38,859 bases of DNA, from NCBI GenBank assembly GCA_022601155.1, contig JAHZJA010000848.1:1-38859 (forward strand), given 5' to 3'. The DNA comes from Deltaproteobacteria bacterium. Lineage in GTDB: Bacteria > Myxococcota_A > Polyangia > Nannocystales > Nannocystaceae. The notes beneath the pieces were generated by a model. That model was not told the origin of the DNA. It saw nothing but the letters and a program-made list of their open reading frames with translations, and did not search any database. Both the position numbers and the translations under genes were made by a program. Positions 22,959-27,984 of this stretch are shown piece after piece. Each line of letters starts with the position of its first letter. The stretch's first letter is position 1.

Positions 22959-24602
22959 TCAGCGCAGCGCCTTCATCAGCAGGTTGTCGCCCGTGATCGC
23001 CGAGGCGGTGAGGAACCCCGACAGCAGCGCTCCACCCACGCCGCACGTGCAGATGTCCTGCCCGGTCAGCCACAGGTTCTTCAGTGGGGTCTTGGGCCGC
23101 AAGAACTTCTGCTCGAACCGCACGGGGTCGTGGTTGAGCCCGTAGATCTCACCAGTTTGGTACGCGGTGAAGTGCTTGGTCGACAGGGGAGTCGACAGCT
23201 CGCGGTAGGCGATGGCGTCTCGGGTCTGGGGCTCGAAGCGGTACAGCTGCTCGAGCAATCGCTCGGTCAGCTGCTCCTTCTTGTCCTTGTACTCGCCGCC
23301 ACGCTTCATCCACGGCTCGCTGTCCCACTTGGCGAACCGCTCCCAGGGCGCGAGCGTGACGATCTCGATGGTCGACTTGCCGGGGTGACGCCGGTCGAAA
23401 TCCGGGTCCTTGGCGGAGGGAAACGAGATGTACGCCACGGGGAGCGGGGCGTCCTCGTCCTCCATGAAGCGCGCGACGACACTGTCGTGGTCGTAGTCGT
23501 CGGGGTAGATCCAGTAGTTGGCGCGCGGCAGGTTCAGCTCCTGCGCGGTGCCGTTGAGGCCGAGGTAGAGGCTCACGTGCGAGGCCGACGGGGTGAGCTT
23601 GTCGAGGGCGTCGCCGAGCTTGAGCCGGGGGCGGTCGGCTTCGGGGACCAGGCGCTTGAAGGTGTTGTGGACGCCCGCGTTGCTGACGACCATCGGCGCC
23701 GAGATCTCGCGGCCGTCTTCCATGCGGACCCCGGTGACCTTGCCCTGCTCGACGAGGAGACCACTGACCGCCGCGTTGGTGAAGGCAGCACCGCCGGCCG
23801 CCTCGATACGCCCGATGATCGTCTCCGCGATCCGAGCCGAGCCGCCCACGGGGTAGCAGCCGCCCGCGAAGTAGTGCTTGACCAGCGAAGCGTGCATCCC
23901 AAAGCTGCTCTGCTTGGGCGGCAGGCCGTAGTCGCCGTACTGCCCGGTGAGCACGCCGATGAGCTTGGGGTCGTCGGTGAACGAGCGCAGCACATCCCAC
24001 GTGGTCTTGCGGGTGTAGCTGAGGTATTTGTTCCGCATCAGGCCGCCGGCTGCCCATGCGCCCACGCTGCCCAACGCCTTCTCGGTGAAGTAGCTTCGCG
24101 AGGCCTTGACCGCGTCGAACACGGCGTCGACGTACTGGTCGATCGCTCGTTTGTGGGCGGGGGTGGGGAACGCCTCGCGAAGCCCATCCTTGAACGCCTG
24201 GACGCCGGCGCGGAGCGGATACTCCTGGTCACCAAAGATGATCCGGTCGTAGACCTCACCCATCTGGGCCCACTGCAGCTCGCCGTCGGTGACGTGATCG
24301 AACAGCTGGCGGAGCACGCTGTGGGGTCGGTGAACCTCGCCCACGTAGTGGACGCCCACGTCCCACTCCCACTCCTTGCGCCGAAACACGTGGGTGAACC
24401 CGCCCAGCACGTAGTGGCGCTCGAGCACAGCGACCTTGTGACCCCGCTGCGCCAGCAGCAACGCGGTGGTCATCCCGCCGAGGCCAGAACCGATCACGAT
24501 CGCGTCGTAGCGATCCTCCGCGGGGGTTTGCTTGTAGGACCGACCAACCCTGGGCACCAGCGGGTTATACGCCACTCGTGACCTGCCCGGCCGGTGTGCC
24601 AT
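22959..24602 (-). CDS. FAD-dependent oxidoreductase, CrtISO/RetSat-like
   Basis: 547 residues of the phytoene desaturase superfamily. An N-terminal Rossmann FAD motif AIVIGSGLGGMTTALLLAQ (Gly38, 40, 42, 43) continues into VLERHYVLGGFTH, the pattern seen in carotenoid isomerases and all-trans-retinol 13,14-reductase-like proteins. VGVHYVGEV and a C-terminal FAD-contact segment NLWLTGQDICTCGVGGALLSGF complete it. Likely chemistry is desaturation, saturation or isomerisation of a polyene or other lipid; the exact substrate cannot be told. No other carotenoid gene is in view. The ATG at 24602 has no strong Shine-Dalgarno; a GTG at codon 10 is an alternative start. It is divergent from the SLC12-like gene, with 76 bp between. 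Confidence 0.9.
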   Translation of the reverse strand: MAHRPGRSRVAYNPLVPRVGRSYKQTPAEDRYDAIVIGSGLGGMTTALLLAQRGHKVAVLERHYVLGGFTHVFRRKEWEWDVGVHYVGEVHRPHSVLRQLFDHVTDGELQWAQMGEVYDRIIFGDQEYPLRAGVQAFKDGLREAFPTPAHKRAIDQYVDAVFDAVKASRSYFTEKALGSVGAWAAGGLMRNKYLSYTRKTTWDVLRSFTDDPKLIGVLTGQYGDYGLPPKQSSFGMHASLVKHYFAGGCYPVGGSARIAETIIGRIEAAGGAAFTNAAVSGLLVEQGKVTGVRMEDGREISAPMVVSNAGVHNTFKRLVPEADRPRLKLGDALDKLTPSASHVSLYLGLNGTAQELNLPRANYWIYPDDYDHDSVVARFMEDEDAPLPVAYISFPSAKDPDFDRRHPGKSTIEIVTLAPWERFAKWDSEPWMKRGGEYKDKKEQLTERLLEQLYRFEPQTRDAIAYRELSTPLSTKHFTAYQTGEIYGLNHDPVRFEQKFLRPKTPLKNLWLTGQDICTCGVGGALLSGFLTASAITGDNLLMKALR

Positions 24603-24678: not shown

Positions 24679-27261
24679 ATGAGTGCTCAGGATCCGCAGT
24701 CGCCCGGGAACCCGCCCGGAGCCGTCCCTGCCGCGCCCGCGCCAGGTGGCACGCCATCTCCGGGCGCGCCGTACCCCGGCGCCGCGCCGGGCGGTCACCC
24801 GCCGCCCCCGATGCAGGGGCATGGTGCGCCCGTCGGTCACCCCGCCCCACACCCGGGCGCGTACCCGCCGGGCGCGATGCCTCCGGGTGGTGTGGCTGGT
24901 GCCCCGACGGGGGCCGCACCCGTGCCGGGCCAGGGATATCCAGGCGGCCCGCCGATGGTGGGTGGACCTCCGATGCCTCCGGGGGGCTCGCCCGCCGATC
25001 CTCCCATGTCGGATACCGCGGTGCCCGCGACGCCCGAAGCCACGCAGGGTCGGTTCGGCACCTTCGGCGGCGTGTTCACGCCGGTCGTGCTCACGATCCT
25101 CGGCGTCATCATGTTCATGCGCGCCGGCTATGTCGTCGGCTACGCAGGGCTCTGGGGAGCGCTGGCGATCTTGGCGCTGTCCAAGGCGATCACCAGTCTC
25201 ACCACGCTGAGCCTGTCGGCGATCGCGACCAACCTCGACGTTCGCGTGGGCGGGGTCTACTTCATGATCTCGCGGGTGCTCGGCCCCGATTTCGGGGGCA
25301 GCATCGGGATCACCCTGTTCATCGCCCAGGCGGTGAGCGTCGCCTTCTATACGATCGGGTTTACCGAGGCGATCTTCGGGATCATCGCCAACTTCTCGCC
25401 CGATGCCGCGGCGGGCCTCACCGACGCCATGGTCCCGCAGATCATCTCGGCGATCGTGGTCACGGGCCTGTTCGTGCTGACCTTCAAGGGGGCCGATGTC
25501 GCTCTCAAGGCGCAGTACGTGGTGCTGGCGGTGCTGCTGCTGTCGGTCGCGGCATTCCTCATCGGCGGGGCGATGGAGTTCGACGCCGATACGTTCGAGG
25601 CCAACCGCAGCGCCGCGTTCACCTCGGACGTCGGCTTTTGGACCGCCTTTGCGATCTTCTTCCCTGCGGCCACGGGCATCTCGGCCGGGGCGAACATGTC
25701 CGGCGACCTCAAGGATCCGGCGCGGGCGATCCCTTCGGGCACGATCCTCGCGATCATCTTCACCGCCGTGATCTACACGGTGCTGATGATCCTCACCGCC
25801 GGTTCATCGCCCCGGGCCGACCTCCAGGGCAACGCCTTCCAGGCGCTGCAACAGATGAGCCTGTGGGGACCGCTCATCGTCGCGGGTGTGTTTGCGGCGA
25901 CGCTCAGCTCGGCTTTGGGCTCGTTCCTCGGAGCGCCACGGATCCTCCAGGCGATGGGCCAAGACCGGCTGATGAAGCCGCTCGAGTTCTTTGGCAAGGG
26001 CTCGGGTCCCGCCAACGAGCCCCGCCGTGCCACCGTCCTCACCTTCATCATTGCCCTCGCGGTGATCTTGGCGGGCGACCTCAACGCGGTGGCCGAGGTC
26101 ATCTCGATGTTCTTCCTGATCGCCTACGGGATGATCAATACCTCCGCGTTCGTGGAGAGCCGTAGCGCCAACCCGAGCTTCCGCCCGCGTTTCCGCGCGT
26201 TCCACTGGACCCTGGCCCTGGGTGGGGCCATCGGCTGCCTCGTGGCGATGGTGAAGATCAACGAGACCTACGCCCTGGTCGCGCTGGGAATCACGAGCCT
26301 GCTGTACTTCTACCTGCGCAACCGCGACATCCAGACCAGCTGGGGCGACGCCAAGCAGGGCTACATCTTCCAGCGCACCCGCGATGCGCTCATCTATCTG
26401 GGGCAGACCAAGACCCACCCCAAGAACTGGCGCCCCATCCTCGCCGCGGTCGGTCCCGAGCCGATCAACGAGCCGCGGCTGGTGCAGATGGGTGCATGGC
26501 TCGAGTGTCGCCGTGGCCTGTACACGGTGGCGCACATCTACGAGACGCCGGAGCCCAGCCTCGGTGACCGCCTCCGGGCCCGAGACCACCGTCGCGACGA
26601 GCTGCGTAGCCACCTCAATGCGCTCGACATCGTCGGGTTTCCCGAGGTGGTGGCGGTGGAGGAGTACCGCGAGGGCCTGACCACCTTCATGCAGAGCTAC
26701 GCGATCGAGGGGGTCCGGCCCAACACCGTGCTCGCCTCGATTCCACCCCTGGCCGACACCAAGGGCCGCGAGCGATTGCTGGAGACCGAGGAAATCCTGC
26801 GGGCCTTCAACTGCAACCTCGTGCTGCTCAAGGGGGGCGACATGGCCCTCGACAAGCCGCAGCGCGTGATCGATCTGTGGTGGCGGGGCGATCGCAACGG
26901 CAGCCTCATGGCGCTGCTGGCCTACCTGATGACTCTCGATCGTACGTGGCGAACGGCTCGGCTCCGCATCTTCCGGGCCGTCACCGACCCCAGCGCAGAA
27001 GCCTCGGCGCGCAAGCACTTGGGCGAGCTGCTGATCAACGCGCGGATCGACGCCGAGATCCACGTGTTCGTGGCGACGAGCCATCCCCACGACTTCATTC
27101 CCGAGCACTCCGGCACGGCCGCGGACATCGTGATGCTCGGGCTGTCGACCGTGGACATGGAGCAGTTCGGAGACTACTTGGCGGCGATGGAGCCGATGCT
27201 CCAGCGGCTGCCAACGACGTTGCTGGTGCGCAGCAACGGCGAAGCCGACCTGTTCGCCTGA
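24679..27261 (+). CDS. SLC12-family cation-chloride cotransporter homologue
   Basis: 860 residues: a ~125-residue Pro/Gly/Ala-rich N-terminal tail (probably disordered and cytoplasmic), a 12-helix APC-fold core at ~130-565 and a ~290-residue C-terminal cytoplasmic domain, the same plan as animal NKCC/KCC proteins. Family segments are unmistakable: SLSAIATNLDVRVGGVYF, ISRVLGPDFGGSIG, FFPAATGISAGANMSGDLKD, FAATLSSALGSFLGAPRILQ and the loop NPSFRPRFRAFHW. Tyr224 (AFYTIGF) matches the potassium-site Tyr of K-transporting members. Ser410-Ser411 match the TM8 serines of sodium-coupled NKCC/NCC that KCCs lack. From this I predict Na-K-Cl type symport, used for ion or volume homeostasis. The C-terminal domain (e.g. 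LVQMGAWLECRRGLYTV) also follows the SLC12 pattern. The -35/-10-like pair ends 18 bp upstream. Confidence 0.93.
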   Translation: MSAQDPQSPGNPPGAVPAAPAPGGTPSPGAPYPGAAPGGHPPPPMQGHGAPVGHPAPHPGAYPPGAMPPGGVAGAPTGAAPVPGQGYPGGPPMVGGPPMPPGGSPADPPMSDTAVPATPEATQGRFGTFGGVFTPVVLTILGVIMFMRAGYVVGYAGLWGALAILALSKAITSLTTLSLSAIATNLDVRVGGVYFMISRVLGPDFGGSIGITLFIAQAVSVAFYTIGFTEAIFGIIANFSPDAAAGLTDAMVPQIISAIVVTGLFVLTFKGADVALKAQYVVLAVLLLSVAAFLIGGAMEFDADTFEANRSAAFTSDVGFWTAFAIFFPAATGISAGANMSGDLKDPARAIPSGTILAIIFTAVIYTVLMILTAGSSPRADLQGNAFQALQQMSLWGPLIVAGVFAATLSSALGSFLGAPRILQAMGQDRLMKPLEFFGKGSGPANEPRRATVLTFIIALAVILAGDLNAVAEVISMFFLIAYGMINTSAFVESRSANPSFRPRFRAFHWTLALGGAIGCLVAMVKINETYALVALGITSLLYFYLRNRDIQTSWGDAKQGYIFQRTRDALIYLGQTKTHPKNWRPILAAVGPEPINEPRLVQMGAWLECRRGLYTVAHIYETPEPSLGDRLRARDHRRDELRSHLNALDIVGFPEVVAVEEYREGLTTFMQSYAIEGVRPNTVLASIPPLADTKGRERLLETEEILRAFNCNLVLLKGGDMALDKPQRVIDLWWRGDRNGSLMALLAYLMTLDRTWRTARLRIFRAVTDPSAEASARKHLGELLINARIDAEIHVFVATSHPHDFIPEHSGTAADIVMLGLSTVDMEQFGDYLAAMEPMLQRLPTTLLVRSNGEADLFA

Positions 27262-27480
27262 GTCGAGCGCGACCGCAGGTCGACGGGCGGTGTCGCGCAG
27301 GTCCTCGTGCGGTCCGCGGTCCCGCTGCCCGGGCGCCTCGATGGGTGCGCGGTCGATGAGGTCGTGGGTGAGGTACGGCCGCCGCGGCATCCGTTGGTAG
27401 GGGCACGAGGCTGACGCATCGATCAGCCCACGACCAACAACACGGCCACCTTGGCCACAGCCGACAGGACCTTTGCCCCC

Positions 27481-27984
27481 ATGAAGACCATCACCACGAG
27501 CATTGCCTCGATCGTACTCGCCACCGCAGCTGCGCTCACCGCTACACCGGCCTCGGCCGCCGATTCGAAGATCTACGCGGGCGAGATGTGCAGCCCCAAC
27601 AAGGACGACTCCACGGTTTCGCACTTTTGGGGCCGCCTCAAGAATGCCTCGGCGACCACCACCAACTTCGAGTGCCCCGTCGTCCGCGACCAGACCGGTA
27701 CCAAGATCAACCACGGTGACGCCTGGGTCATCAACCAGAACTACAACCAGAGCCTCAGCTGCACCCTCGGCCTGCTGTTGCCGCTGAGCGGTGGAGTGAG
27801 CGGAGCCAGCGGGTTCTTCTCCACTCGATCGACCGCCGTCGTCAGCTCGGCGCCCCAGAAGCTCGCCTCGTTCGGGAGCCTCGGCCACCTGTTGAACGGC
27901 TACGCAGCGATGATCTGCAGCATCCCTGGCGTCTACAACGGCCAGCAGTCGGGCCTGGTCTCGTACCACGTCAACGAGGCCTGA
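27481..27984 (+). CDS. Small secreted protein with conserved-looking Cys pattern
   Basis: 167 residues. Signal peptide ~1-26 ending TPASA-A. The mature part has four cysteines (GEMCSP, FECPVVRD, LSCTLG, MICSIPG) and a beta-rich look. The order 'C ... N-s-x-t ... CPvvRD ... sC' resembles small exported proteins I have seen in many myxobacterial genomes, but I know no function. Start at 27481 chosen for the signal peptide; AGGA lies about 12 bases upstream. An in-frame ATG 30 bases earlier exists. The 219 bp between it and the SLC12-like stop hold no clear gene. Confidence 0.8.
   Translation: MKTITTSIASIVLATAAALTATPASAADSKIYAGEMCSPNKDDSTVSHFWGRLKNASATTTNFECPVVRDQTGTKINHGDAWVINQNYNQSLSCTLGLLLPLSGGVSGASGFFSTRSTAVVSSAPQKLASFGSLGHLLNGYAAMICSIPGVYNGQQSGLVSYHVNEA

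Follow-up and report, generated by a model that had tools for sequence, protein, structure and literature searches.

A bacterial CCC/SLC12 family transporter from the Nannocystaceae carrying the Tyr and Ser-Ser cation-site residues of its bacterial relatives

The gene and its surroundings

The window analysed here, a stretch of 38,859 nucleotides from a genome assigned to the Nannocystaceae (assembly GCA_022601155.1, contig JAHZJA010000848.1), carries on its forward strand at 24679..27261 the gene of a CCC/SLC12 family transporter, in the following called the window CCC. The open reading frame starts with ATG, has no internal stop codon and encodes 860 amino acids (residues 1-860). Its GC content of 0.65, 0.50 and 0.88 at the first, second and third codon position is the pattern of a coding gene, and the start codon is supported because the orthologue of Paraliomyxa miuraensis begins alike (MSSRDPQTP versus MSAQDPQSP in the window CCC). 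It is a real gene and a homologue of the CCC/SLC12 proteins. Since all homology falls in the forward frame, an antisense open frame at 25804-27969 (minus strand) is most likely a shadow frame of the high-GC sequence. Scanning for promoters and terminators at the gene gave nothing useful.

The protein begins with a tail rich in Pro, Gly and Ala (24679..25047, forward strand, residues 1-123), the length of which differs from homologue to homologue. It continues with a LeuT-fold transmembrane (TM) domain that is homologous to SLC12 proteins over TM1-TM12 according to phmmer and Foldseek. The cytoplasmic C-terminal domain of the CCC type (26440..27258, forward strand, about residues 588-860) was recognised by Pfam SLC12, AlphaFold2 and Foldseek, and the secondary structure of the AlphaFold2 model is mixed alpha/beta in this part. 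A motif search over the whole 860-aa protein found no RFx[V/I] SPAK motif; hence, animal-type phospho-regulation via SPAK docking is not expected.

Divergent from the gene lies that of an FAD-dependent oxidoreductase resembling carotenoid desaturases/isomerases (22959-24602, minus strand), the only neighbour common to the window and the P. miuraensis locus. No link of the neighbourhood to ion homeostasis was found around the window CCC gene. On a plasmid of Peptoclostridium acidaminophilum, another bacterial CCC gene (L015) adjoins a divergent gene for a ClC H+/Cl- exchanger, a neighbourhood consistent with chloride handling.

Family assignment and predicted fold

Among the Pfam families, the window CCC matches AA_permease (E 1.5e-59) and the SLC12 C-terminal domain (PF03522, E 9.8e-14, 51.6 bits, above the cut-off of 27). 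The NCBIfam model TIGR00930 (K-Cl cotransporter) gives 526 bits, which is under its cut-off of 953.4 bits. As none of the genomes sampled across the phylum reaches this cut-off, it appears tuned to eukaryotic members, and TIGR00930 is a subfamily model that does not define the CCC family. The best phmmer matches among solved structures (PDB) are NKCC1 with 339 bits, KCC2 with 326 and NCC with 301, and the homology to NKCC1, NCC and KCC spans the full length of the protein; amino acid permeases score far below the CCCs. When the second half was used as the sole query, KCC4 (241 bits) came before NKCC1 (230 bits), whereas residues 318-560 are in direct alignment 45% identical to NKCC1 and 39% to KCC4. 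The nearest relatives belong to the Nannocystaceae, among them P. miuraensis. Paraliomyxa is a marine genus.

An AlphaFold2 model built from 12 bacterial sequences reached a mean pLDDT of 76 and a pTM of 0.54, and in a Foldseek search it matched human NKCC1 first. Compared with entries comprising the TM domain only, the TM domain gave a target-normalised TM-score of 0.79 with NKCC1 (3.5-3.7 A, 37% identity, 475 columns), followed by NCC with 0.77 (35% identity) and KCC1 with 0.70 (28% identity). These scores and identities place the transmembrane core nearest to the N(K)CC branch and bear out the statement of the earlier note that the core follows the animal SLC12 proteins closely. The PDB entry 3g40, which we take to be MaCCC of Methanosarcina acetivorans, covers only the C-terminal domain of this prokaryotic CCC. 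It shows a weak profile similarity to the C-terminal domain of the window CCC (E 5e-13), gives no match in a single-sequence search at E 0.001 and is far nearer to the C-terminal domain of a divergent Myxococcota protein (L062).

Residues at the ion sites

For comparison we collected 57 bacterial CCCs, including the window CCC, from genomes, plasmids and a family search; most are from Myxococcota, and six phyla are represented (Myxococcota, Cyanobacteriota, Bacillota, Bacteroidota, Planctomycetota and Fibrobacterota). The K+ site of NKCC1 is formed by Y383 together with N298, I299, P496 and T499, to which N298 contributes a backbone carbonyl (PMC7889885). The Tyr is conserved in K+-using CCCs, whereas NCC carries His (PMC10043231), and according to the literature it occurs in KCCs, too. 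Y224 of the window CCC (25348..25350, forward strand) lies within VSVAFYTIGFTE, which aligns without gaps and with high confidence to VAVAMYVVGFAE of NKCC1 and puts this residue onto human Y383, so its proposed identity as the K+-site Tyr holds. The TM6 segment FFPAATGI (25657..25680, forward strand, residues 327-334) supplies P329 (P496) and T332 (T499) of the K+ site and G333-I334 of the second chloride site. The position of N298, which is Asn in animal CCCs, is occupied by T139, and Thr stands there in all 57 bacterial proteins.

The sodium-site serines were located equally well. The TM8 segment ATLSS (25897..25911, forward strand, residues 407-411) corresponds to the LeuT Na2-type Na+ site with A407 at A610, S410 at S613 and S411 at S614, and it lies in a gapless, high-confidence block (AATLSSALGS versus SATLSSALAS in NKCC1). 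S613 and S614 have been assigned to the Na+ site of NKCC1, and NCC shares this Ser-Ser site (PMC9784483). The earlier note had been right in reading S410 and S411 as these serines and in stating that KCCs replace the pair by Gly-Ala, as KCC4 reads STCGAGLQS in our alignment; the window CCC has no such replacement and unites the K+-site Tyr with the Ser-Ser pair. Judged from the alignments, the mapping of Y224 and of S410/S411 is far beyond chance.

Both chloride sites can be traced as well. The unwound segment of TM1, LTILGVIMFMRA (25090..25125, forward strand, residues 138-149), corresponds to LNIWGVMLFIRL of NKCC1 (L138 to L297, T139 to N298, R148 to R307), with G142-V143-I144 at the G301-V302-M303 of the first site. 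The second site consists of G333-I334-S335 and the TM10 residue Y483 (26125..26127, forward strand), which aligns with human Y686 and is conserved in 56 of the 56 bacterial sequences extending that far. The two motifs are kept except for their third positions (M303 to I144, L502 to S335), and W300 is replaced by L141. Altogether, the side-chain ligands of the K+, Na+ and second Cl- site of NKCC1 are all identical (Y224, T332, S410, S411, Y483), as is P329. The gate pair of NKCC1, R307 in TM1b and E389 in TM3, is kept as R148-E230; at this pair, the bacterial proteins L037, L048, L057, L064 and L016 show G/M, L/K, L/E, L/D and R/Q, respectively. Of three bumetanide contacts (PMC9784483), L671 and A675 are conserved and V385 is Ile (I226) in the window CCC, so bumetanide sensitivity does not follow and is not predicted with confidence.

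Distribution among bacteria and descent

The cation-site residues are shared by nearly all bacterial CCCs. The Tyr at the Y224 position is found in 57 of 57 sequences, and the positions of T332 and P329 are likewise invariant. The Ser-Ser pair is kept in all but four, with Ser in 53, Thr in three and Leu in one at the S410 position, and Ser in 54 and Ala in three at that of S411. Hence, the view that animal ion-site residues were specially retained in this protein had to be given up. The assignment as NKCC-like by Tyr and Ser-Ser survives only for the combination, since the Tyr alone is also found in KCCs and the Ser-Ser pair alone in NCCs, and even the combination does not mark the window CCC as NKCC-like, because it is near-universal among the bacterial proteins. 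Going by the sequences compared, it is the bacterial default rather than an NKCC-specific mark, and this state is probably ancestral. The ATLSS sodium-site signature was already reported in 2024 for bacterial CCC ancestors (PMC11641049).

The closest known counterparts of the window CCC are found in the bacterial clade of TCDB 2.A.30/SLC12, for example the CCC group treated in PMC11641049 and WP_012305600 from the Picosynechococcus plasmid pAQ7, which is annotated as 'amino acid permease'. The latter protein is 39% identical and has the same architecture; the Tyr, Ser-Ser, TM6 and TM10 residues of the clade are the same, while the long Pro/Gly-rich N-terminal tail distinguishes the window CCC. 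The published bacterial ancestor reads LNIL (PMC11641049) in place of LTIL in the window CCC, with Thr in all 57 sequences. Animal NKCC1 (SLC12A2) shares the LeuT fold of the TM domain, the two cation sites, the two Cl- sites and the CCC-type C-terminal domain, and differs in the substitutions mentioned above (N298/T139, W300/L141, L502/S335), at 37% TM identity, and in the SPAK motif that the window CCC does not have. Animal KCC1-4 (SLC12A4-7) share the fold, the Cl- sites, the K+-site Tyr (from the literature) and similarity in the C-terminal part, but have Gly-Ala in place of the sodium-site serines.

A tree was calculated from TM6 onward with the sodium-site columns removed and with NKCC1, KCC2 and KCC4 as the only animal rows. 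In the best tree, the window CCC falls together with P. miuraensis and other Nannocystaceae into a bacterial clade of 20 rows (support 99) that contains neither NKCC1 nor the KCCs. Constrained trees in which the window CCC was forced to group with NKCC1 were not rejected (p 0.09-0.18), hence this tree neither shows nor excludes a specific kinship with NKCC1. The window CCC belongs to a bacterial branch that has been described before, and is an ordinary representative of it.

Three Myxococcota CCCs (L060, L062 and L068 from genomes G038, G062 and G117) are without the sodium-site serines and read STFTAALSS or STALAALSS. Their grouping with the KCCs was rejected in a tree test (p 0.0003), and on the tree the loss of the sodium site amounts to two changes, one in KCC and one in this Myxococcota clade. 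Judged from sequence comparison, the Na+ site disappeared from this clade in an event separate from that in KCC, and its members are natural candidates for Na-independent bacterial CCCs.

A second, longer CCC paralogue exists in the Nannocystaceae. The copy of the source genome (L027, G000:C764, complement) is 35% identical to the window CCC, and further copies are L028, L029, L030, L031, L032 and L033. Complete versions have about 1,700-1,840 amino acids, in which the CCC core with intact K+- and Na+-site residues is followed in the same frame by an extension of ~1000 amino acids, comprising long helices, then a P-loop domain of the AAA_16/AAA_22 type with GEIGAGKTALC and a Walker B-like MFDDLEMWW, and finally a stretch similar to a winged helix. 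In the structure prediction, the C-terminal part is similar to ATPases of the Orc1/Cdc6 and STAND types, though the TM-score is low. Since at least seven genomes of the Nannocystaceae carry the paralogue, the CCC-AAA+ fusion is not an assembly artefact; similar long frames occur in relatives at class or phylum level (G128:C92 and G062:C11 with 1734 and 1611 aa). The domain composition suggests an ATPase-regulated salt transport, and our literature search found no description of such a fusion. Another frame of the source genome (L013, G000:C143) joins a start similar to RND-type outer-membrane efflux lipoproteins to an APC permease and also has stress-protein-like and PTS-IIA-like parts; its first part may stem from a joint made in the assembly or between frames.

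Probable transport activity

A literature search found no transport measurement for any bacterial CCC, and the activity has to be deduced from the conserved sites. As the cation and chloride ligands are all in place, Na-K-2Cl cotransport is the likeliest of the activities considered, and we regard this prediction for the window CCC as probable, with some reservation. The K+-site Tyr argues for K+ as a substrate, and the Ser-Ser pair is a point for Na+ coupling, as the Na+-independent KCC carries Gly-Ala at these positions. Na2-type sites are widespread in Na-coupled LeuT-fold transporters (PMC9784483), so this site predicts the coupling to Na+, not the 1:1:2 stoichiometry. The Thr at the N298 position in all bacterial homologues and the differences in sites and pocket (L502 to S335, V385 to I226) count against Na-K-2Cl cotransport.

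A rival reading is a NaCl or loosely Na-coupled transport, in which both cation sites would accept Na+ as in NCC (2Na:2Cl) and K+ would not be obligatory. The Na+ site is intact and the same in NCC (PMC9784483), the predicted TM fold is almost as near to NCC as to NKCC1, and Thr in place of Asn298 changes the surroundings of the K+ site. However, Y224 is kept here and in all other bacterial CCCs compared, where NCC has His (PMC10043231), and we consider this activity unlikely. K-Cl cotransport, with a serine pair that is structural and does not carry Na+, seems quite unlikely. It could draw on the nearest NCBIfam model, which is that of the K-Cl cotransporter, albeit under the cut-off, on the higher KCC4 score of the second half, and on the consideration that KCl efflux could serve volume regulation in a bacterium with high internal K+. 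But the serine pair is kept, whereas it is absent from KCCs and from plant CCCs, which move K+ and Cl- without Na+ (PMC11641049), residues 318-560 are closer to NKCC1 than to KCC4, and the predicted TM domain is structurally nearer to NKCC1. A non-salt APC-type permease that uses the CCC fold for an amino acid or polyamine is very improbable and 'amino acid permease' was rejected as the function, because this RefSeq label of close relatives, like the Pfam match to AA_permease, is a generic domain name, the scores of amino acid permeases are far below those of CCCs, both Cl- and both cation sites are essentially intact, and the CCC C-terminal domain is present.

The family, the predicted fold and the positions of the residues were established here; for Na-K-2Cl cotransport by the window CCC, we infer ions, stoichiometry, direction, dimerisation and physiology as follows. 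The LeuT-type TM domain with its CCC-type cytoplasmic domain would probably form a dimer, as in the animal relatives, and would cotransport Na+, K+ and Cl- electroneutrally at 1:1:2. For K+, the predicted ligands are Y224, P329, T332 and the carbonyls of T139 and I140, while Na+ would occupy the Na2-type site made of L138, L141, A407, S410 and S411. One Cl- would sit at the GVI site of TM1 and the other at the GI(S)/Y483 site of TM6 and TM10. If the bacterium lives exposed to salt, Na+ flowing in down its gradient could thereby drive the uptake of K+ and Cl- and help to adjust osmolarity or cell volume. A search of the source genome, the assembly of which is 72% complete, for the sodium pump component NqrA gave no match, so there is no support for a sodium cycle in this bacterium.

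Extended to the family, it is a tentative and rather doubtful idea that bacterial CCCs in general are Na+-driven importers of K+ and Cl- with an ancestral Na+ site, in which the invariant Thr at the Asn298 position would give a cation selectivity or stoichiometry unlike that of any animal CCC, and that the Na+ site disappeared on two or more occasions, with KCC-like transport as the result, in the eukaryotic KCCs and in the Myxococcota clade.

The window CCC gene itself is a good example of its branch and adds little beyond. Its bacterial relatives carry no annotation other than 'amino acid permease'. The SLC12 family includes important drug targets, for which bacterial CCCs could offer simpler models, and the natural variants with losses of the Na+ site or of the gate pair are ready-made comparisons. 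Moreover, the activity of bacterial CCCs bears on the question whether Na-K-2Cl coupling is ancestral in SLC12.
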